Assembly: GCA_017744915.1 (NCBI GenBank) | Contig: JAGIAH010000005.1 | Coordinates: forward strand, 124,001 to 188,000 | Direction of reading: 5' to 3' | Source of the DNA: Agrobacterium tumefaciens | GTDB taxonomy: Bacteria > Pseudomonadota > Alphaproteobacteria > Rhizobiales > Rhizobiaceae | DNA length: 64,000 bases | In this document: piece after piece, positions 1,791-26,951 of the stretch | How the letters are laid out: each line of letters opens with the position of its first letter | Numbering within the stretch: the first letter of the stretch is position 1 | Notes under the pieces: generated by a model | The model's input: the letters and a program-made list of their open reading frames with translations, nothing else | What the model was told of the DNA's origin: nothing | The model's database searches: none | Position numbers and translations under genes: made by a program

Positions 1791-2867
1791 TCATATCCGA
1801 CGCCCATCCGCCCCGAACAGGTGCGTTTTCGCCAGATCAAACGCAAAAGGAATGGTCTCGCCGATGCGGATATGGCGCTGGCCGTCCAGCAACACGGTGG
1901 CGGGCTGGCCGTCGGGGGTGGCGGTGTAGACCACCGTCGAGCCACCGAGATGTTCGACAAGCTGGATCGAGGCGTCACCAAGCGAGGCCGATTGTGCCTG
2001 CGGGTTCACATGCTCCGGGCGTACGCCGAAGGTGAGCGGCTCGCCCTGCTGGGCGGCAACCGGTTTTTCCAATACGATGCGCTGGCCGGCCACTTCGATG
2101 GTGCGGTTGGAACTGTCGCCGGAGGCCACCTTTGCGGAGAGGAAATTCATCTTCGGCGAGCCGATGAAACCGGCCACGAACTGGTTGGCCGGATTGTTGT
2201 AAAGATCGAGCGGCCGGCCGACCTGCATGATGCGACCGTCACGCAACACGACGATCTTGTCGGCCATGGTCATGGCTTCCACCTGGTCATGCGTCACATA
2301 GATCATGGTGCTGCCGAGCGTCTGGTGCAGCTTGGCGATTTCGACGCGCATCTGCACGCGCAGTTCCGCATCGAGGTTGGAGAGCGGTTCATCGAACAGG
2401 AAGATTTTCGGTTCGCGCACGATGGCGCGGCCGATGGCGACACGCTGGCGCTGACCACCGGAAAGCGCCTTGGGCTTGCGTTGCAAAAGCGGGCCGATCT
2501 GCAGGATATCGGCGGCCTTCTGCACCCGCGCCTGAATTTCAGGCTTCTTGTAACCCGCCGTTTCGAGGCCGAAAGCGAGATTCTTGTAAACGCTCATATG
2601 CGGATAAAGCGCATAGGACTGGAAGACCATGGCAATGCCGCGTTTGGAGGCCGCGGTCTCGTTGACCCTTTCGCCATCGATACGCAGATCGCCTTCGGAG
2701 ATTTCCTCAAGCCCGGCGATCATGCGCAGGAGTGTGGATTTTCCGCAGCCCGAGGGGCCGACGAAAACGGTGAATTCGCCCGGCTCGATCTTCAGATCGA
2801 TACCGTGGATGACTGGAAAAGCGCCGAACCGCTTGACGATTTTTTCGAGCGTAATGCTGCTTGCCAT
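1791..2867 (-). CDS. Sugar ABC transporter ATP-binding protein (MalK/UgpC type)
   Basis: A 358-residue cytoplasmic ATPase energising the importer encoded by the next three genes. Walker A (GPSGCGKST, residues 38-46), the signature LSGGQRQRVAIGRA, Walker B (IFLFDEPLSNLD) and the switch His (YVTHDQ) are all intact. The C-terminal third is the OB-fold/TOBE regulatory region typical of carbohydrate uptake transporter family 1 ATPases (FGVRPEHV motif). A GGGAG ribosome site precedes the start. It is the last gene of the run substrate-binding protein, permease, permease, ATPase, 88 bases after the second permease. Confidence 0.93.
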   Translation of the reverse strand: MASSITLEKIVKRFGAFPVIHGIDLKIEPGEFTVFVGPSGCGKSTLLRMIAGLEEISEGDLRIDGERVNETAASKRGIAMVFQSYALYPHMSVYKNLAFGLETAGYKKPEIQARVQKAADILQIGPLLQRKPKALSGGQRQRVAIGRAIVREPKIFLFDEPLSNLDAELRVQMRVEIAKLHQTLGSTMIYVTHDQVEAMTMADKIVVLRDGRIMQVGRPLDLYNNPANQFVAGFIGSPKMNFLSAKVASGDSSNRTIEVAGQRIVLEKPVAAQQGEPLTFGVRPEHVNPQAQSASLGDASIQLVEHLGGSTVVYTATPDGQPATVLLDGQRHIRIGETIPFAFDLAKTHLFGADGRRI

Positions 2868-2955: not shown

Positions 2956-3831
2956 TCAGCGTTTCATTCCCGTGGTCGCGATGCCTTCGATCAGCAGCCG
3001 CTGGAAAAACAGGAAGAACAGGAAGACCGGCACCAGCGACAGGTTGGACATGGCGAAAAGCGAGGTCCAGTCCGAGCTGCCGGTGGAATCCACGAAAGAG
3101 CGGAGGCCGAGTTGCACGGTGTAGGTGTTGATGTCGTTCAGATAGATCAGCGGCCCGAAGAAATCGTCCCAGGTCCAGATGAAGGAAAAGATGGCGGCCG
3201 TCGCCAGCACCGGCAGCGACAAGGGCAGCATGATCTTCCAGTAGATACGGAAGGGCGAGCAGCCATCCATGACGGCCGCCTCGTCCAGCTCACGCGGAAT
3301 GCCACGGAAGAACTGCACCATCAGGAAGATGAAGAAAGCGTCCGTCGCGAGGTACTTCGGCACGATCAGCGGCAGCGAAGTGTTCACCCAGCCCATTTCC
3401 AGGAACAGGATATATTGCGGGATGAGCACGACGTGATAGGGCAACATCAGGGTGCCGAGCATCAGCGCGAACCAGAAATTGCGGCCACCGAAGCGAAGCC
3501 TTGCGAAGGCGAAGGCGGCAAGCGAACAACCGACGACGTTTCCTATGGTGGCGAGCACCGAAATGAAGAAGGAGTTCCAGAAGAACTGCCCAAAACTCAC
3601 CTGCAGCCCTGTCCAGCCGCGAATATAACCGCCGACATCGACCGCCGAGGGGATGAGTGAGGAAGAGCCGAACAGCTCGTCCTGCGGCCGGAAGGAACCG
3701 GATATCATCCACAGGATCGGATAGAGCATCGCGAAAGACGCAATGATCAGCGCCGTGTGGAGCATCACCGATTTCAGCGGCGAGCGTTGCGGGCCTTGGC
3801 CCGGCCGGGGGGCGGTAACAGCATCAGTCAT
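2956..3831 (-). CDS. Sugar ABC transporter permease (MalG type)
   Basis: A 291-residue inner-membrane permease with six predicted hydrophobic spans and the cytoplasmic EAA loop (ELDEAAVMDGCSPFRIYWKIMLPLS) that docks onto the ATPase. The first span begins after a 25-residue cytoplasmic tail. The start overlaps the end of the upstream permease gene by eight bases, indicating translational coupling. With its partner permease it forms the channel of a carbohydrate importer. The substrate is unknown; the adjacent enzymes are sugar dehydrogenases and isomerases. Confidence 0.93.
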   Translation of the reverse strand: MTDAVTAPRPGQGPQRSPLKSVMLHTALIIASFAMLYPILWMISGSFRPQDELFGSSSLIPSAVDVGGYIRGWTGLQVSFGQFFWNSFFISVLATIGNVVGCSLAAFAFARLRFGGRNFWFALMLGTLMLPYHVVLIPQYILFLEMGWVNTSLPLIVPKYLATDAFFIFLMVQFFRGIPRELDEAAVMDGCSPFRIYWKIMLPLSLPVLATAAIFSFIWTWDDFFGPLIYLNDINTYTVQLGLRSFVDSTGSSDWTSLFAMSNLSLVPVFLFFLFFQRLLIEGIATTGMKR

Positions 3832-4777
3832 CGTAATGCACCCAGTATTTCGCGCTGAGGAACGAGAAGGCCGTGAACAGCGAGATGATGATCACCAAAA
3901 TCCAGGCAAGCGCCGAGGCGTAACCCATGCGGAAGAAACCGAAGGCTTCCTGGTAGAGATAAAGCGTGTAGAACAGCGTCGAATTGATCGGCCCGCCGGT
4001 GCCTTCGGAAATGATGAAGGCGGGCGTGAAGGCCTTGAAGGCATCGATCGTCTGGATCACCGCGTTGAAGAAGATCACCGGTGTCAGAAGCGGCAGGGTA
4101 ATGCGGAAGAATTGCCGCACCTTGCTCGCACCGTCGATCTCGGCGGCCTCATACATATCCTGCGGGATTTGCCTGAGCCCGGCGAGGAAGATGATCATCG
4201 GCGAACCGAACTGCCAGACGGACAGGATGACCAGCGTGTAGATCGAATAATCCGGATTGGAAATCCAGCTCGGACCTTCATAACCGAAGGCCTGCCAGAG
4301 GACCATGTTGACGAGACCGTCCGAAGCGAAAAGCTGGCGCCAGAGAACGGCGATAGCGACACTCGAACCCAGCAGCGACGGCAGGTAGAAGATCGCCCGG
4401 TAAAGCGTGAGCCCCTTGATGCCGCGATTGAAGGCGAGCGCCACGAGAAGCGCGAAGATAAGCTTCAGCGGCACAGACAGCAGCACATAGGTAAACGTCA
4501 CCTGCATGGCGGCGGCAAATTTCGGGTCGGCGGTGGCGATGCGCACATAATTGGCCGCCCCCACCCAGTCCGGCGACTGCAACAGGTCGTAATTGGTGAA
4601 GGACAGATAAAGCGACGCAAGCGCCGGGCCCAGCGTGAGGCCGAAAAAGCCGATCAGCCAGGGCAGGAGAAACAGGTAGGCATGAATGTTGCGGTCGAAC
4701 ATCCGCTTCACGCCGCCCCGCTTCGGGAGAGCCGCGCCACGGCTCTCCCCCACAAGAGTTTCAGATCGAAAGGCCAT
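3824..4777 (-). CDS. Sugar ABC transporter permease (MalF type)
   Basis: A 317-residue inner-membrane protein with about six transmembrane segments, beginning with the AYLFLLPWLIGFFGLTLGPA span, and the EAA loop (DMYEAAEIDGASKVRQFFRITLPLL). The family and pairing with a MalG-type permease indicate a carbohydrate uptake family 1 importer. The first 25 residues are hydrophilic, and an internal Met (FDRNIHAY context) is a possible alternative start. It lies six bases downstream of the substrate-binding protein gene, so the two are co-transcribed. Confidence 0.92.
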   Translation of the reverse strand: MAFRSETLVGESRGAALPKRGGVKRMFDRNIHAYLFLLPWLIGFFGLTLGPALASLYLSFTNYDLLQSPDWVGAANYVRIATADPKFAAAMQVTFTYVLLSVPLKLIFALLVALAFNRGIKGLTLYRAIFYLPSLLGSSVAIAVLWRQLFASDGLVNMVLWQAFGYEGPSWISNPDYSIYTLVILSVWQFGSPMIIFLAGLRQIPQDMYEAAEIDGASKVRQFFRITLPLLTPVIFFNAVIQTIDAFKAFTPAFIISEGTGGPINSTLFYTLYLYQEAFGFFRMGYASALAWILVIIISLFTAFSFLSAKYWVHYDD

Positions 4778-4783
4778 AAACCA

Positions 4784-6073
4784 TCACTTCCGTTTGATAA
4801 CGGTTTCGGATTCCTTGACGAGGCGGTCACCGCCCTCTTCCGGCGTGATCTTGCCGAAGCCAACTTCTTCCGCCGTGCGTTTCAAAACGAAGGCGAATTC
4901 GCCCGCGCCCGGAGGCGGTGCCGGCGGCAGATCGCCGACGCCGGGGGTAATCTCGGCGATATAATCCACCATGATCTTGCTGACCTCGTCGAGCTTGCTG
5001 CTCAACTGGCTGCGCATGGATTCCGAGGCAGGAACACCGCGCTCGACACCGAGAATATCGATGCCCTGCGGTTCGGCGACGAGGAAGTTGATGAAACCGA
5101 CCGCCTGCTCGATGCCGGGGCTGCCGGCGGCAACACTGATCAGCATGGAGGGTTTCAGATAGTGACCGGAAGGACCATCCTTCGTGCTCTTCGGATAGGA
5201 GCTTATCGCAAGCTTGGACTTGTTGAGCTTCTGATAACCGACGAACTGGTTGGAATGGGCAAAAGCGGTGGCCGCCTTGCCGGTCGTCAGAGGGTTGGTT
5301 TCGATATTGAGCTGATCCAGCGCCTGCACGTCGGCCGGCACACAGGCGCCGCTCTTGCGCAGATCCGCCCACAGAGTGAACCATTTGGTCGCATCGGTCG
5401 GATCGAAGCCGATGGCGCCATCCTGCGTATAAAGCGACTTGCCATTCTGGCGCAGCCAGTTTTCGAAGCTCGGCTCCACGCCGCTCGCATCGGCCGTGGC
5501 ATAATAACCGGGTTTCGGCTTGTTCTTGCTGAGCTTGGCGGCGTTTTCGGCAAACTCCTCCCAGGTCTGGCCGATGGACGGCGGTGTCGCGCCGGATTTT
5601 TCCCAGGCCGCCTTGTCAAAGAAGACCGCACTCGAATTGACCCCGAGATTGATGCCGTAAAGCTTGCCATCGACCCGACCGGAATCGATGTTCATCTTGC
5701 CGAAATCCTCGATCTTCAGGCCCTTGCCGATATAGTCATCGAGCGGCGCCAGCGCGCCGCGACGGCCATATTCGAAGATGTAGCGATAATCCATCTGGAT
5801 CAGGTCGGGCGCATTGCGGCCCGCCACCTGCGTGGCAAGGCGCGGCCAATAATCGCTCCAGCCGGCAAATTCGCCGGCAATGTCGAGATCGGGCTTCACC
5901 TGCTTGTAAGCCGCAATCGCCTTATTGGTACGATCGGCACGTTCCTGTGACCCCCACCACAACATGCGAAGGCGCGCGGCCTGCGCTTGCGCCGACCCTC
6001 CCCCCAATGTTGCAAGCGACAGGGCCGCAAGCCCTGTTGAAAGCACAGTTCTCCTCTTAAGCATCATGGGCAT
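4784..6073 (-). CDS. Sugar ABC transporter substrate-binding protein
   Basis: A 429-residue periplasmic family 1 extracellular solute-binding protein that should capture the sugar for the adjacent permeases. The N-terminus MPMMLKRRTVLSTGLAALSL looks like a signal peptide with a twin-arginine-like KRRTVLS motif, ending near AQAQA. The mature region starts RLRMLWWGSQERADR, typical of sugar-binding proteins. The start at 6073 was chosen because GGGAGGAG stands 7-8 bases upstream; an in-frame ATG at 6160 would place the operator inside the coding sequence. It is first in its operon, under a promoter carrying the palindrome shared with the enzyme operon at 7137. Confidence 0.92.
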   Translation of the reverse strand: MPMMLKRRTVLSTGLAALSLATLGGGSAQAQAARLRMLWWGSQERADRTNKAIAAYKQVKPDLDIAGEFAGWSDYWPRLATQVAGRNAPDLIQMDYRYIFEYGRRGALAPLDDYIGKGLKIEDFGKMNIDSGRVDGKLYGINLGVNSSAVFFDKAAWEKSGATPPSIGQTWEEFAENAAKLSKNKPKPGYYATADASGVEPSFENWLRQNGKSLYTQDGAIGFDPTDATKWFTLWADLRKSGACVPADVQALDQLNIETNPLTTGKAATAFAHSNQFVGYQKLNKSKLAISSYPKSTKDGPSGHYLKPSMLISVAAGSPGIEQAVGFINFLVAEPQGIDILGVERGVPASESMRSQLSSKLDEVSKIMVDYIAEITPGVGDLPPAPPPGAGEFAFVLKRTAEEVGFGKITPEEGGDRLVKESETVIKRK

Positions 6074-6135: not shown

Positions 6136-6149
6136 TAACTAATTGGTTA
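6136..6149. promoter_or_regulatory. Candidate TetR operator between the ABC operon and the divergent tetR gene
   Basis: TAACTAATTGGTTA differs at two positions from TAACCAAATGGTTA at 7063-7076. On the minus strand a perfect TTGACA (6179-6174) lies exactly 24 bases before it, so the operator starts one base after where the -10 box of the ABC operon would end. On the plus strand it falls inside the likely promoter spacer of tetR (TTGCCG at 6125), so autoregulation is plausible. The role is inferred from position and recurrence. Confidence 0.65.
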
Positions 6150-6191: not shown

Positions 6192-6890
6192 ATGGAAGAA
6201 ACGACAAAAAACCAGCCACTCGACACGGCCACGGAAGAAACGCCGGCGCCCAAGCGCAAACGCGCGACGACACAGGTCAGAAACCCGGAAAGAACCCGGG
6301 CCGCGATCCTTGAGGCGGCCCGCCGCGAGGTGGCGGCAAAGGGGCTGGCGGGGGCACGAATCGATGTCGTCGCCCGTCGCGCCGGCACCAACAAGCGGAT
6401 GATCTATCATTATTTTGGCGACAAGGATGCGCTTTACCTTGCCGTCCTGGAAGACGCCTATCGCCATATCCGTCACACCGAAAGGCGGCTCGATCTCGCC
6501 CGAAAGGCCCCTTCGGAGGGGTTAAGGGAACTTGCGCTTTTCACCTGGCACTACTTCCTCGACCACCCGGAATTCCTCAGCATTCTCGCCACGGAAAACC
6601 TCAATAAAGCCCGCTATCTCAGGCAATCTCCGACAATCACCGCGATGCATTCGAATTTCATTTCGGAACTTGAAGACGTGCTGCGGCGCGGCAGCGATGC
6701 CGGCGAATTCCGCGACGGCCTTGATCCGATCGATGTCTATCTGACCATCGCCTCACTCGGCGCCTTTTATCTGTCGAACCGGTTCACGCTGTCGACGATC
6801 TTCCAGCGCGACCTGACGGACCCGGCCGAGTTGGAACGCTGGGGCCAGCACATCGTCAACACCCTGCTTGCTGCGGTGCGGCCGGTCTGA
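6192..6890 (+). CDS. TetR family transcriptional regulator
   Basis: A 232-residue regulator. A basic N-terminal tail (KRKRATTQ) precedes a TetR DNA-binding domain at about residues 30-80, with the recognition helix region RAGTNKRMIYHYFGDKDALYLAVL. The C-terminal domain (about 90-230) would bind a ligand and dimerise. The start at 6192 was chosen because upstream in-frame ATGs lie within the divergent promoter and its operator. It sits between the ABC importer operon and the enzyme operon, and both carry a matching palindrome, so it is probably their local repressor, relieved by the imported sugar or a derivative. Confidence 0.88.
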   Translation: MEETTKNQPLDTATEETPAPKRKRATTQVRNPERTRAAILEAARREVAAKGLAGARIDVVARRAGTNKRMIYHYFGDKDALYLAVLEDAYRHIRHTERRLDLARKAPSEGLRELALFTWHYFLDHPEFLSILATENLNKARYLRQSPTITAMHSNFISELEDVLRRGSDAGEFRDGLDPIDVYLTIASLGAFYLSNRFTLSTIFQRDLTDPAELERWGQHIVNTLLAAVRPV

Positions 6891-7032: not shown

Positions 7033-7076
7033 TTGACAGATCGCCTTCTTCGCGACCACAAATAACCAAATGGTTA
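7033..7076 (+). promoter_or_regulatory. Promoter and candidate TetR operator of the enzyme operon
   Basis: TTGACA (7033-7038) is a perfect -35 box. A 17-base spacer leads to a weak -10 (CCACAA), followed after one base by the palindrome TAACCAAATGGTTA (7063-7076; arms TAACCA/TGGTTA). The 24-base distance from TTGACA to palindrome is identical to that of the divergent ABC promoter. Binding there would cover the start of transcription, which suggests repression. The leader to the first ATG is about 60 bases. Confidence 0.65.
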
Positions 7077-7136: not shown

Positions 7137-8279
7137 ATGAAACGTATCGGCGTCATCATGCACGGCATCACCGGCCGCATGGGTTACAACCAGCATCTCG
7201 TGCGCTCCGTTCTCGCCATTCGCGATCAGGGCGGTGTGCTTTTGAAGAGCGGCGAAAGGGTCATGCTCGACCCCATCCTCGTCGGCCGCAACGGCGCGAA
7301 GATCGAAGAAATCGCCAGAAAGCACAATGTCGCCCGGTGGACGACCGACCTTGATGCGGCACTGGCAAACCCCGATGACACGCTGTTCTTCGATGCCGGC
7401 ACGACGCAGATGCGCGGCAGCCTGCTGGAGAAGGCCATCAAGGCCGGCAAGAACGTCTATTGCGAAAAGCCGATTTCCGACACGATGGAAGAGGCGCTGG
7501 CGATTGCCCGGCTCGCCGAAAGCGCCGGCATCAAACACGGCGTGGTGCAGGACAAGCTGTTCCTGCCCGGCCTTCGCAAGCTGGCCATGCTGCGCGACAG
7601 CGGCTTCTTCGGCAAGATCCTCTCGGTGCGCGGCGAATTCGGTTACTGGGTTTTCGAGGGCGACTGGCAGCCGGCGCAGCGCCCCTCATGGAACTACCGC
7701 CTGAAGGATGGCGGCGGCATCATTCTCGATATGCTGTGCCACTGGCGTTACGTGCTCGACAATCTGTTCGGGCCGGTAAAATCCGTAAGCTGCCTTGGCG
7801 CCACCCACATTCCGGAACGCTTCGATGAGCAGGGCAAAGCCTATAAGGCGGATGCGGATGATGCGGCCTATGCGACCTTCGAGCTGGAAGGCGGCGCCAT
7901 CGCCCATATCAATTCCTCATGGGCCGTTCGCGTGCGCCGCGACGATCTCGTCACCTTCCAGGTGGACGGCACCCATGGCTCGGCGGTGGCGGGCCTGACC
8001 AAATGTTTTACCCAGCACCGCACCAACACGCCAAAGCCGGTGTGGAACCCCGACCAGCCGCAGACCATCGATTTCTACAAGACCTGGCAGGAAGTGCCGG
8101 ACAATGTCGTCTACGACAACGGCTTCAAGGCGCAGTGGGAGATGTTCGTGCGCCACCTCGTCGACAATGACCCATGGCCCTATGGGCTGATGGAAGGCGT
8201 GAAGGGCGTGCAGCTTGCCGAACTGGGGCTGAGATCGTGGAAGGAACGCCGCTGGCTCGACGTTCCAGCCCTTTCCTGA
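7137..8279 (+). CDS. Gfo/Idh/MocA family oxidoreductase
   Basis: A 380-residue NAD(P)-dependent sugar or cyclitol dehydrogenase. The N-terminal Rossmann strand (IGVIMHGITGRMG, residues 4-16) has an unusual loop instead of the plain GxGxxG. The family motif EKPIS, whose Lys is catalytic, is present near residue 110, and the C-terminal beta-sheet domain is complete (GGGIILDMLCHWRYVLDNLFG carries the usual conserved His). ATG 7137 was chosen because GGGAGG stands seven bases before it; the in-frame ATG at 6975 lies upstream of the promoter. It is the first gene of a four-gene operon under the shared palindrome. Confidence 0.88.
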   Translation: MKRIGVIMHGITGRMGYNQHLVRSVLAIRDQGGVLLKSGERVMLDPILVGRNGAKIEEIARKHNVARWTTDLDAALANPDDTLFFDAGTTQMRGSLLEKAIKAGKNVYCEKPISDTMEEALAIARLAESAGIKHGVVQDKLFLPGLRKLAMLRDSGFFGKILSVRGEFGYWVFEGDWQPAQRPSWNYRLKDGGGIILDMLCHWRYVLDNLFGPVKSVSCLGATHIPERFDEQGKAYKADADDAAYATFELEGGAIAHINSSWAVRVRRDDLVTFQVDGTHGSAVAGLTKCFTQHRTNTPKPVWNPDQPQTIDFYKTWQEVPDNVVYDNGFKAQWEMFVRHLVDNDPWPYGLMEGVKGVQLAELGLRSWKERRWLDVPALS

Positions 8280-8289
8280 GGAGGCGACC

Positions 8290-9453
8290 GTGAGTGAACT
8301 CAAGCTTCCAAAAGAAGATCGCGGCATCGAGGTCTACAAGCTGTCCGGTACGCCGGTCGCGGTTGAAAAACGAAGTGCCGCGGATTTCAACCGCGTCGCT
8401 TTTGCCGCCGCCCATGTGGTGGCCGATCCGCTTGCCGATAACGACCCGTGGCTGACGCCCGCCATTGACTGGGACGCGACCTTGCGCTTCCGTCACCGGC
8501 TCTGGGATCTCGGCCTTGGCGTTGCCGAGGCCATGGATACGGCGCAGCGCGGCATGGGGCTGGCATGGCCGCAGGCGCAGGAACTCATCTCCCGCTCGCT
8601 GAAGGAAGCAGCCAGCCGCAAGGATGCGCTGATTGCCTGCGGGGTAGGCACCGACCATCTGAATGGCGGCGGCCATGACCTCAACCATATTGTAGACTCC
8701 TACCTCGAACAGCTTGATTTTGTTCAGGGAGAAAGTGGGCGCGTGATCCTGATGGCCAGCCGCGCGCTGGCCGCAGCCGCCCGCTCGCCGGATGATTATC
8801 TCGAGGCCTATGCCAGGGTTCTTTCCCGCGCGGACCAGAAGGTGGTGATCCATTGGCTGGGTGAAATGTTCGATCCGGCGCTTGAGGGTTACTGGGGTTC
8901 GGGCGACCACATGCAGGCCATGGAAACCTGCCTTGCCATGATCGAGGCGAATGCCGAAAAGATCGATGGCATCAAGATTTCGCTCCTCTCCAAGGAAAAG
9001 GAAATCGTGATGCGCCGCCGTCTGCCATCAAGCGTGCGCATGTATACCGGCGACGACTTCAATTATGCCGAACTGATCGCCGGCGACGAGCAGGGCCATT
9101 CGGACGCGCTGCTCGGCATCTTCGATGCCATCGCACCGGCGGCCTCCAAGGCGTTGGCCAGCCTGAAACGCGGCGCGGACAATGAATTTTTCGACATTCT
9201 CGAGCCGACGGTGGCACTGTCGCGCCATATCTTCAAGGCCCCGACCCGCTTCTACAAGACCGGCGTGGTGTTCCTCGCCTACCTCAACGGGTTGCAGGAC
9301 CATTTCACCATGGTCGGCGGGCAGGAAAGCACCCGCTCCACCCGGCATTTCGCGGAACTTTTCCGGCTGGCGGACAAGGCCAATGTGCTGGCCGAACCCG
9401 ATCTCGCCACCCACCGCATGAAGACGTTCCTGACTGTGCGGGGCATCAGCTGA
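8290..9453 (+). CDS. DUF993 family protein, probable dihydrodipicolinate synthase-like aldolase or lyase
   Basis: A 387-residue protein starting with GTG after a strong GAGGAGG site. I recognise it as DUF993. Within it, DGIKISLLSKEKE around Lys229 followed by YTGDDFNYAELI (GDD 254-256) resembles the end of a dihydrodipicolinate synthase-type barrel, where a GIK lysine forms the Schiff base and an SGDD loop follows. The GVGTDHLNGG stretch near 120 is another conserved-looking loop. If the comparison holds, it would cleave or dehydrate a keto-sugar produced by the neighbouring dehydrogenases. The family name is established; the catalytic proposal is inference. It lies 10 bases after the dehydrogenase gene and 24 before the isomerase gene. 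Confidence 0.8.
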   Translation: MSELKLPKEDRGIEVYKLSGTPVAVEKRSAADFNRVAFAAAHVVADPLADNDPWLTPAIDWDATLRFRHRLWDLGLGVAEAMDTAQRGMGLAWPQAQELISRSLKEAASRKDALIACGVGTDHLNGGGHDLNHIVDSYLEQLDFVQGESGRVILMASRALAAAARSPDDYLEAYARVLSRADQKVVIHWLGEMFDPALEGYWGSGDHMQAMETCLAMIEANAEKIDGIKISLLSKEKEIVMRRRLPSSVRMYTGDDFNYAELIAGDEQGHSDALLGIFDAIAPAASKALASLKRGADNEFFDILEPTVALSRHIFKAPTRFYKTGVVFLAYLNGLQDHFTMVGGQESTRSTRHFAELFRLADKANVLAEPDLATHRMKTFLTVRGIS

Positions 9454-9477: not shown

Positions 9478-10299
9478 ATGAGCCTTGAAGGCCTTTCCAT
9501 CAATTTCGCCACCGTGCGGCAGGGCGGCAATTTCGGCGCCATCGTTGATGCCTGCCTTGCACATGGCATCACCGCCATTTCGCCCTGGCGCGAGCAGGTG
9601 CACGGCGTCGGGCTCGCCGAAGCGACCCGCATCGTCGAACAGAACGGTCTGCGCCTCAGCGGCCATTGCCGCGGCGGTTTTTTCCCTGCCCCCACTGCGG
9701 AAGGCCGCCGCCTGGCGATCGAAGACAATAAACGCGCCGTCGATGAGGCCGCCGCCATGAAGGCCGATTGCCTTGTGCTCGTTGTCGGCGGCCTGCCTGC
9801 CGGCTCGCGTGACCTCAAGGGTGCGCGGCAGATGGTGGAGGACGGCATGACTGAGCTTCTGCCCTATGCACGGGCCGCCGGTGTGCCGCTGGCCATCGAG
9901 CCGCTTCACCCTTTTTATGCCGCCGACCGGGCCTGCTTCAACACGCTGAAACAGTCGCTCGATCTCTGCGACCGGCTGGGTGCAGGCACCGGCGTCGCCA
10001 TCGACGTCTACCACGTCTGGTGGGACCCGGAACTGGAGGAGCAGGTGGCGCGCGCCGGCAGGAACGGGCAAATCCTCGCCCACCATATCTGCGACTGGCT
10101 GGTGCCGACCACCGATCCGCTCAATGATCGCGGCATGATGGGTGACGGCGTGATTGACCTCAAGGCGTTTCGCGCCATGATCGAGGCCGCCGGCTTCCAC
10201 GGCCCGCAGGAAGTGGAAATCTTTTCGCACCGCTGGCAGGCCCGCCCGATGGACGAGGTTCTCGCCACCGTGGTGGAGCGTTTCAAGACTGTTTGTTGA
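9478..10299 (+). CDS. Sugar phosphate isomerase/epimerase family protein
   Basis: A 273-residue xylose-isomerase-like TIM barrel. Features include the N-terminal strand INFATVRQGG, ITAISPWREQVHG near 35-47, the metal-ligand strand PLAIEPLHPFYAADR near 140, and AIDVYHVWWDPELEEQ near 180, where Asp and His would bind metal. The C-terminal QEVEIFSHRW segment carries another Glu ligand. Members isomerise keto sugars or dehydrate inosose-like compounds. It is in the TetR-controlled operon between DUF993 and the second dehydrogenase, and an AGGGGAGA ribosome site is present. The substrate is not deducible. Confidence 0.85.
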   Translation: MSLEGLSINFATVRQGGNFGAIVDACLAHGITAISPWREQVHGVGLAEATRIVEQNGLRLSGHCRGGFFPAPTAEGRRLAIEDNKRAVDEAAAMKADCLVLVVGGLPAGSRDLKGARQMVEDGMTELLPYARAAGVPLAIEPLHPFYAADRACFNTLKQSLDLCDRLGAGTGVAIDVYHVWWDPELEEQVARAGRNGQILAHHICDWLVPTTDPLNDRGMMGDGVIDLKAFRAMIEAAGFHGPQEVEIFSHRWQARPMDEVLATVVERFKTVC

Positions 10300-10317: not shown

Positions 10318-11553
10318 ATGCCTGAAAGGGTGAAACGCAAACGCTATGCGCTGGTCGGCACCGGCAATCGCGGCACCACCATGTGGGGCCGCGAATTGCT
10401 GGCGGGCTGGAGCGACTATGTCGAGCTTGTCGGCATTTGCGACCTCAACCTGATGCGCGCCGAACGCGCCCGCGCCATGATGGGATCGAACGCGCCGCTT
10501 TACGATGATTTCGAGCGGATGATGGTGGAGCAGCGGCCCGAACTGGTGATCGTCTGCACGCCGGACGATACCCATGACGACATCATCATCCGCGCGCTTG
10601 AGGGCGGGGCAGATGTCATCAGCGAAAAACCGATGACCACCACCCCGGAAAAGATCGACCGCATTCGCGCAGCCGAAGCCAAAAGCGGCCGCCGGGTCGA
10701 CGTCTCCTTCAATTATCGTTTCTCTCCCACCGCCGCCCGCATCAAGGAACTGATAGACGACGGCGCCATCGGCACGGTTACCTCGGTCGATTTTCACTGG
10801 TATCTCGATAACCAGCACGGCGCGGATTATTTCCGCCGCTGGCATGCCTTCACCGAACATTCCGGCAGCCTGTTCGTGCACAAGGCCACCCACCATTTCG
10901 ATCTCCTGAACTGGTATCTCGATTCCGATCCCGTGGAGGTAAAGGGCTTCGGGCAATTACTGCATTATGGCAGGAACGGGCCGTTCCGCGGAACGCGCTG
11001 TCGCACCTGTCCGCATAAAGGCGAGTGCGATTATTTCATGGATCTCGGTGCCGATCCCTTCCTCGACGCACTCTATGAAGACCCGTCGAGCATCGATGGC
11101 TATATGCGGGACGCCTGCGTCTTCCGTGAGGAGATCGACATCCCCGATACGATGAGTGCGTCGATCCGTTACGCCAGCGGCGTGCAGGTCTCCTATTCGC
11201 TGAACACCTACATGCCGATCGAGGGCCACCACATCGCCTTCAACGGCCATAAGGGCCGCATCGAGATGCGCCAATATGAAAAGCAGCCGTGGACGGAGCC
11301 GCCGGCCGATGAAATCCTGCTGGTGAAAAGTTTCGGCGGCGGTGTCGAACGCATCTGGGTGCCGCATGAGCCCGGCGGCCATTATGGCGGTGACAACCGC
11401 ATGCGCGACATGATCTTCAAGCCGGGCTCCAACGACCGGCTGCGTCAGCGGGCGGGTTCACGCGCCGGCGCCATGTCCGTCCTCTGTGGCGTCGCGGCGC
11501 TGAAAAGCGCCCGCGAGGGTGGCTCCCAGCCGGTAAAATCGTTGCCCCTGTAA
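10318..11553 (+). CDS. Gfo/Idh/MocA family oxidoreductase
   Basis: A 411-residue NAD(P)-dependent dehydrogenase, last gene of the operon. The Rossmann motif is ALVGTGNRGTTMWG (residues 11-24), the catalytic motif EKPM occurs near 106, and VHKATHHFDLLNWYL carries the conserved catalytic-region His. An unusual insert near residues 223-240 contains CRTCPHKGECDYF, four cysteines in C-x2-C-x5-C spacing plus another nearby, that could bind a metal or cluster. Members of this subgroup oxidise sugar derivatives. Two dehydrogenases in one operon suggest a sequence of oxidation and reduction, for example keto-glycoside formation followed by cleavage and reduction. Confidence 0.87.
   Translation: MPERVKRKRYALVGTGNRGTTMWGRELLAGWSDYVELVGICDLNLMRAERARAMMGSNAPLYDDFERMMVEQRPELVIVCTPDDTHDDIIIRALEGGADVISEKPMTTTPEKIDRIRAAEAKSGRRVDVSFNYRFSPTAARIKELIDDGAIGTVTSVDFHWYLDNQHGADYFRRWHAFTEHSGSLFVHKATHHFDLLNWYLDSDPVEVKGFGQLLHYGRNGPFRGTRCRTCPHKGECDYFMDLGADPFLDALYEDPSSIDGYMRDACVFREEIDIPDTMSASIRYASGVQVSYSLNTYMPIEGHHIAFNGHKGRIEMRQYEKQPWTEPPADEILLVKSFGGGVERIWVPHEPGGHYGGDNRMRDMIFKPGSNDRLRQRAGSRAGAMSVLCGVAALKSAREGGSQPVKSLPL

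Positions 11554-26018: not shown

Positions 26019-26951
<933 letters not shown>

Follow-up and report, generated by a model that had tools for sequence, protein, structure and literature searches.

A DUF993 protein of Agrobacterium tumefaciens with a predicted DapA-type fold: a candidate Schiff-base lyase in a conserved dehydrogenase operon

The window examined here, a stretch of 64,000 nucleotides from a contig of Agrobacterium tumefaciens (JAGIAH010000005.1, positions 124,001 to 188,000), harbours a cluster of genes around a member of the DUF993 family. An ABC transporter is encoded on the reverse strand, and a TetR-family regulator precedes a catabolic operon in which the DUF993 gene is accompanied by those of a xylose-isomerase-like TIM barrel and of two Gfo/Idh/MocA dehydrogenases, GfoA and GfoB (Table 1). 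The DUF993 reading frame is intact, running from a GTG codon at 8290, preceded by GAGGAGG, to a stop at 9453. It encodes 387 residues, and the Pfam family covers the protein end to end (620.6 bits against a cut-off of 24). NCBIfam gave no match above cut-off for GfoA, the TIM barrel or GfoB, and the structure of the close homologue of GfoA, 3oqb, is titled just 'Oxidoreductase'. In an even draw of 398 genomes from the phylum of the window, its own genome included, DUF993 is present in 36. Elsewhere in the window, a reverse-strand gene at 26019–26933 encodes a true 5-dehydro-4-deoxyglucarate dehydratase (KdgD, above its cut-off) and stands beside an enolase-superfamily-like gene; it likely belongs to a separate uronate pathway. 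The genome as a whole contains eight PF00701 matches and a separate dapA at another locus (L092).

Table 1. Genes, codons and candidate operators of the DUF993 locus, with positions in the window
Feature	Position	Strand	Basis
ABC ATPase, UgpC/MalK type	1791–2867	-	Pfam, NCBIfam
ABC permease 2	2956–3831	-	Pfam
ABC permease 1	3824–4777	-	Pfam
ABC transporter solute-binding protein	4784–6073	-	Pfam; start is an inner ATG, chosen by eye
Palindrome-like TAACTA-AT-TGGTTA, candidate operator, between transporter and regulator genes	6136–6149	+	
TetR-family regulator	6192–6890	+	Pfam
Palindrome TAACCA-AA-TGGTTA, candidate operator, upstream of catabolic operon	7063–7076	+	
GfoA, Gfo/Idh/MocA dehydrogenase, directly upstream of DUF993	7137–8279	+	Pfam; PDB 3oqb match, E 6.3e-195
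DUF993 protein, DapA-fold, candidate Schiff-base lyase	8290–9453	+	Pfam PF06187, E 1.2e-186; model pLDDT 85; DHDPS fold match
D83-T84-A85-Q86-R87 codons, replacing DapA G43-T-T-G-E47	8536–8550	+	Alignments; least confident loop of the model
His188 codon, at the usual catalytic Tyr position (DapA Tyr133)	8851–8853	+	His in 30/30; 8/8 alignments
Lys229 codon, candidate Schiff-base lysine, barrel strand 6	8974–8976	+	Conserved in 30/30; DapA Lys161 in 8/8 alignments
T253-G254-D255-D256 loop codons, after strand 7	9046–9057	+	E. coli DapA SGDD 185–188 in 8/8 alignments
Xylose-isomerase-like TIM barrel (AP_endonuc_2)	9478–10299	+	Pfam; close homologue of structures 3qc0 and 3ju2
GfoB, second Gfo/Idh/MocA dehydrogenase	10318–11553	+	Pfam

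Lys229 of the DUF993 protein lies within the stretch DGIKIS, and residues 253–256 read TGDD. A sequence-only reading of the locus had placed TGDD 25 residues beyond the lysine and had likened this order to that of DapA. The open reading frame bears this out, with the loop starting at 24 residues and its glycine, Gly254, standing at 25, the spacing that also separates Lys161 from Gly186 in E. coli DapA. When the protein was shuffled 200,000 times, the pattern K-x23-[ST]GDD arose in 136 shuffles and G[ILV]K-x22..26-[ST]GDD in 11. For comparison with the DHDPS family, 24 proteins were assembled, comprising E. coli DapA, YagE and NanA as well as proteins of the window's genome and its relatives: the positions of E. 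coli residues 186, 187 and 188 hold Gly in 20, Asp in 3 and Asp in 15 of them, respectively. As many motifs could catch a reader's eye and the DHDPS family itself varies at the GDD, the lysine and TGDD taken by themselves are uncommon and suggestive, short of decisive. The shared fold and the common register described below make the match more than chance.

An AlphaFold model built from 38 sequences (mean pLDDT 85, pTM 0.86) displays eight strands that follow one another in barrel order at residues 36–40, 77–80, 115–119, 151–154, 185–190, 225–231, 250–253 and 273–277. Lys229 is located on strand 6 and Thr253 closes strand 7, and the loop spanning residues 81–90 is the weakest region (block mean 55). 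A Foldseek search with the model yielded the crystal structure 4dnh as the top match (E 4.4e-49), followed, among the 50 best matches listed, by DHDPS-type entries with a best E of 7e-10. VIA-align 2 re-aligns Foldseek's list, and the two fold results are not independent; it assigned 4dnh a Z of 53.7, and the next 49 entries listed are all of DHDPS type, MosA and YagE included, with Z from 28.9 to 27.9 over 284–289 residues at 2.3–2.7 Å, covering model residues ∼35–370. The best DHDPS chain superposes over 284 residues with an rmsd of 2.4 Å, and E. coli DapA (1dhp) and YagE (2v8z) reach Z 28.0 and 28.1. The structural comparison with DapA proposed in the sequence-only reading thus came out in its favour: the predicted model has a DHDPS-type (beta/alpha)8 barrel, and Lys229, rather than lying away from the barrel, occupies the strand-6 Schiff-base position, a correspondence of position only that is judged by its strand and by its alignment to Lys161.

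Residue equivalences between DUF993 and DapA were taken from sequence alignments and not from the superposition. Five hhalign settings and three MAFFT modes gave eight alignments, all of which share the same register. Other sequence comparisons were carried out at the level of profiles and single proteins. A 38-member DUF993 alignment compared with the 24 DHDPS-family proteins produced a probability of 6%, and a more diverse 30-member alignment a probability of 45% (E 2e-4), which is below the level usually trusted; three unrelated control families (the operon's TIM and Gfo proteins and the enolase-type protein) scored 0.1–0.2%. BLASTP of the DUF993 protein against E. coli DapA gave no significant match (best E 4.6), and hmmsearch of PDB sequences with the 38-sequence profile returned 4dnh and then entries at E 0.031 and worse, none of which is a DHDPS. 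No PF00701 match was listed for any of five DUF993 proteins in a Pfam scan at E up to 10, a range in which the HMMER filters drop most matches above 0.1. In view of the BLASTP, hmmsearch and profile results, a proof of homology from sequence only was dropped, and, as the 45% depended on the more diverse alignment, the case for kinship rests mainly on the fold of the model. The best explanation is that DUF993 would belong to the DapA/N-acetylneuraminate-lyase (DHDPS/NAL) superfamily as a branch that has diverged far.

A diverse set of 30 DUF993 sequences, that of the window included, served to survey conservation. K229, T253, D255, T84, D83, R87, H188, W189 and Y201 are invariant in all 30, and K229 is likewise invariant in the separate 38-sequence alignment. 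G254 and D256 are each found in 29, the exception being a Streptomyces protein (L138) that reads TSDT where the others have TGDD and retains the lysine; conservation of the lysine thus extends to a protein with an altered GDD loop. In all eight alignments K161, SGDD and T44 of DapA correspond to K229, TGDD and T84, and T45, E47, Y107 and Y133 are replaced by A85, R87, L160 and H188. R138 corresponds to L198 in seven and is uncovered in the remaining one.

In DapA relatives the [GS]-[TS]-[TS]-G-E segment grips the carboxylate of the 2-keto acid. In DapA itself Arg138 serves for aspartate-semialdehyde and Tyr133, Tyr107 and Thr44 form a relay; Thr44/45 are also among the residues with active-site roles. 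The DapA segment GTTGE has become D83-T-A-Q-R87 in DUF993, so that the G-[TS]-[TS]-G-E pattern is absent, and the replacement loop is poorly modelled. The catalytic tyrosine, usual though not universal in the superfamily, is missing as well: the Tyr133 position holds Tyr in 23 and Phe in one of the 24 DHDPS-family proteins. The set that marks DapA proper (Arg138 with Tyr133, Tyr107 and Thr44) is answered by Leu198, His188, Leu160 and Thr84. New invariant polar residues have appeared, namely D83, R87, D122, H188, W189, Y201, D255 and D266. To judge from the aligned residues, the rest of the DapA active site appears rebuilt and the chemistry may have changed. With GTTGE, Tyr133, Tyr107 and Arg138 all altered, a pyruvate-type substrate is not indicated. 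The earlier suggestion of a class I enzyme for a keto-sugar acid therefore stands in part: the DapA-type barrel with Lys229 agrees with it, but the exchange of GTTGE for DTAQR and of Tyr133, Tyr107 and Arg138 for His, Leu and Leu speaks against the keto-sugar-acid, pyruvate-type portion. A study of KdgD and KdaD published in 2026 (PMC13398020) defines the superfamily by its barrel and Schiff-base lysine and describes in KdaD a catalytic glutamate where the rest of the superfamily has tyrosine. The tyrosine has thus been replaced before, and DUF993, with histidine, would add a third residue at this position.

The operon is conserved among close relatives. In the best 80 of at least 591 places matching DUF993, a GfoA-type gene lies directly upstream in 76, a TIM-type gene is found within 1.8 kb downstream in 76, and both share the DUF993 strand in 74. 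Two of the six loci without the full triad (L020 and L079) place DUF993 near a contig end. GfoB accompanies the triad in part of the loci only. Several of the more distant DUF993 loci have a dehydrogenase of another family or lack the TIM gene. The usual Gfo place upstream of DUF993 is taken in Paraburkholderia caribensis by the gene of a shikimate-dehydrogenase-like protein with a ThiF-family annotation (L104:9110-9934). In a subgroup of four loci (L105, L139, L140 and L144) a '3-ketoacyl-ACP reductase' stands instead of Gfo, and genes for CoA-transferase, enoyl-CoA hydratase, acyl-CoA dehydrogenase and aldo/keto reductases lie near DUF993. Type I polyketide synthase genes adjoin the DUF993 gene or lie close to it on two Streptomyces plasmids (L141:8998-10188 and L142:8998-10185); the protein with TSDT mentioned above is 100% identical to that of L141.

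Neighbours were also counted over 109 loci by tblastn of named reference proteins. The transporter varies by lineage and may be a sugar ABC system, an ABC system of NMT1/THI5 type, a tripartite tricarboxylate transporter, another sugar ABC system (pAO1) or an MFS protein. This variety is too great for the substrate to be decided from the transporters. An enolase-type protein is encoded near DUF993 in 45 of the 109 loci. Neither Pfam nor NCBIfam recognized it in the members scanned, and no enolase domain was found in three of them with Pfam at E up to 10; a model of one member (L006, pLDDT 88.5) matches structures of the enolase superfamily. The KxK, D/E/E and second Lys motifs can be picked out by eye in two members (L106:7390-8778 and L006:11166-12602). 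A search of the window's genome with the L006 protein as query, run with no positive control, found no such partner.

Two copies of a palindrome, TAACYA-N2-TGGTTA, frame the regulator gene in the window, and none occurred in 100 shuffles of the window. The looser form TAACYA-N2-TRGTTA is confined to these two places in the 4.9-Mb genome (two forward and two reverse matches, against one and one for a reversed control pattern). When up to two mismatches are allowed, the window contains three places against 0.68 expected, and the third, mismatched site (29268) is probably due to chance. Across the DUF993 loci the palindrome is present in 32 of 109, compared with 0, 0, 0, 1 and 0 in five rounds of single-base shuffling, and is absent in this form from the other 77. 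In a subset of 87 loci it was found in 28, and in 27 of these a named cluster gene follows within 400 bases. Roughly two thirds of the 28 are of Rhizobium, Agrobacterium or Ensifer type, and Erwinia, Caulobacter, Marinobacterium and Microvirga are also represented. Caulobacter sp. (L052) has it ahead of a TonB receptor gene, of an MFS transporter gene and of the Gfo-DUF993 operon. DUF993 clusters that belong to different bacterial classes and differ in their transporters have this palindrome in common. It is likely to be the operator of the TetR protein, and is regarded here as a candidate.

A further clue comes from glycerate kinase, which tblastn located near DUF993 in 13 of the 109 loci (ten of MOFRL type and three of TIGR00045 type), with domains checked by profile in three (L052, L101 and L100). 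These loci, not all of which are mutually independent, include pAO1 and Embleya among the Actinomycetota, in addition to Caulobacter, Erwinia, Marinobacterium, two Paracoccus plasmids, S. meliloti pSymA and five other genomes of the window's class. Eleven of the kinases lie on the DUF993 strand no more than 3.4 kb away; the remaining two are on the opposite strand, at 4.5 kb (L101) and 6.2 kb (L048). On pAO1 the gene order is GMC oxidoreductase, AldH, Gfo, DUF993 and glycerate kinase. These loci and the pAO1 arrangement are the reason why cleavage to a three-carbon unit is preferred. No glycerate kinase was found near DUF993 in 96 of the 109 loci, and none of the 13 is among the closest relatives of the window. 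A genome-wide search for the TIGR00045 type found none in the window's genome and 20 relatives. With none of this type in these 21 genomes and no kinase of either type near DUF993 in most loci, the three-carbon product is without direct support in the window's own lineage.

In the preferred reading, the GfoA dehydrogenase encoded upstream would produce a ketone with which Lys229 on strand 6 would form a Schiff base. A retro-aldol step would then cut a carbon–carbon bond, the invariant His188 taking the place of the usual tyrosine, and the xylose-isomerase-like barrel encoded downstream may isomerise, epimerise or dehydrate the ketone before or after cleavage. The substrate would be a polyol, cyclitol or sugar acid, imported by the transporter that each lineage happens to have recruited; a three-carbon unit ending as glycerate would be among the products. 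That DUF993 is a class I Schiff-base C–C lyase of the DapA fold, acting on a keto-polyol made by GfoA and ending in a three-carbon unit, is given a probability of about 0.5. The analysis shows the fold resemblance of a model, the conserved lysine, the conserved operon and the candidate operator, and the Schiff base, the cleavage, the order of steps and the product are what we infer. The enolase-type partner was counted in favour of the lyase; the CoA-transferase, enoyl-CoA hydratase and acyl-CoA dehydrogenase genes of other subgroups are not accounted for by the pathway. A wider and more tentative proposal, less probable than the lyase claim itself, envisages DUF993 as a new branch of DapA/NAL proteins, a Schiff-base lyase with His for Tyr and without the 2-keto-acid carboxylate site, that would cleave a 3-keto sugar, a keto-cyclitol or a branched keto-polyol. 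Gfo dehydrogenase, TIM isomerase and DUF993 would constitute a new oxidative pathway to glycerate, distributed over many bacteria, governed in part by one TetR-type operator and reused in Streptomyces polyketide clusters with an altered GDD loop.

Other chemistries could be accommodated on the same barrel. Lys229 might bind the ketone for elimination of a beta-hydroxyl, with or without decarboxylation and with no C–C bond cut, as in a Schiff-base dehydratase of the KdgD or KdaD kind. Both of these are dehydratases of the superfamily, and the glutamate of KdaD, as described in PMC13398020, offers a precedent for the lost tyrosine among dehydratases; the enolase-type partner also hints that elimination-type chemistry may be around. 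However, DUF993 carries histidine rather than glutamate, and the 13 glycerate kinase loci, some with aldehyde dehydrogenase, fit C3 cleavage better, which leaves a dehydratase unlikely. The loss of the superfamily tyrosine, together with the new invariant polar residues, would suit an enzyme that forms no Schiff base (an isomerase, a hydrolase or a metal-dependent lyase) and whose Lys229 merely binds substrate. Against this stand the invariance of Lys229 and, in all but one of the 30 sequences, an [ST]GDD-type loop with unchanged spacing, and such an enzyme is considered quite unlikely.

An aldolase of the canonical pyruvate type, like KDG aldolase or DHDPS, would act on a 2-keto-3-deoxy sugar acid. 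It accords with the retained equivalents of K161 and SGDD and with sugar-acid enzymes near some loci, for example a ManD-type D-mannonate dehydratase in L052, but not with the exchanges of GTTGE, Tyr133 and Tyr107 in all eight alignments and of Arg138 in the seven that cover it. Furthermore, none of the window's cluster genes scanned with Pfam came out as a known sugar-acid dehydratase, whether of the enolase type or another. This is the least probable of the readings considered; canonical DapA or KDG aldolase was set aside as first choice on account of the residues surrounding the lysine, which are not kept.

The idea of kinship between DUF993 and DapA is not new and is already present at family level in public annotation: homologues are named 'dihydrodipicolinate synthase family protein' by NCBI and, in one case, 'DUF993 family protein'. 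The structure 4dnh, released in 2012 as 'hypothetical protein SMc04132 from Sinorhizobium meliloti 1021', has a title that gives no function. It matches the window's protein over residues 5–386 (phmmer E 1.9e-181) with no notable difference, and SMc04132 is probably its ortholog. The locus tag of the TIM homologue 3ju2, SMc04130, is close to SMc04132. A paper on the AniA/PhaR regulator (PMC12542648) tabulates SMc04132 with SMc04133, 04135, 04138 and 04139. In the open-access literature no paper was found on DUF993 or PF06187 or on the function of 4dnh, and no lead to a substrate; '4DNH' gave a single match, in a lizard gut paper, and the codes of the neighbours gave nothing useful. Nor was any description found there of the rebuilt active site, the glycerate-kinase link or the candidate operator. 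All three core proteins of the operon have close homologues of solved structure (4dnh, 3oqb and 3qc0/3ju2), and no assigned reaction was found. The anatomy of DUF993 narrows the question of function to one lysine, one histidine, one dehydrogenase that would make the substrate, a binding protein and a candidate operator with its inducer. If the proposed Schiff-base lyase proves correct, a well-studied superfamily gains a lyase whose acid/base residue has changed, and an unmapped catabolic route opens.

Pathways of the levoglucosan and inositol dehydrogenase type combine Gfo dehydrogenases and a xylose-isomerase-like barrel in one operon, and the window's operon resembles them in this respect. 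These pathways were rejected as an assignment, as GfoA and GfoB match the corresponding models weakly, far under the curated cut-offs. To our knowledge they have no DapA-fold partner, in contrast to the operon of the window, which includes one. With the DHDPS/NAL superfamily (DapA, NanA, YagE; PF00701) DUF993 shares the barrel and the lysine of strand 6, and its strand 7 is likewise followed by an [ST]GDD-type loop, spaced from the lysine as in E. coli DapA. DUF993 differs in ∼34 extra N-terminal residues, most fold alignments starting at model residue 35, and in a five-residue insertion after His188-Trp189 seen in the profile alignment. Like KdaD, as characterized in PMC13398020, DUF993 is devoid of the conserved tyrosine of the superfamily, whereas the residue in its place, glutamate in KdaD by that description and histidine in DUF993, sets the two apart.
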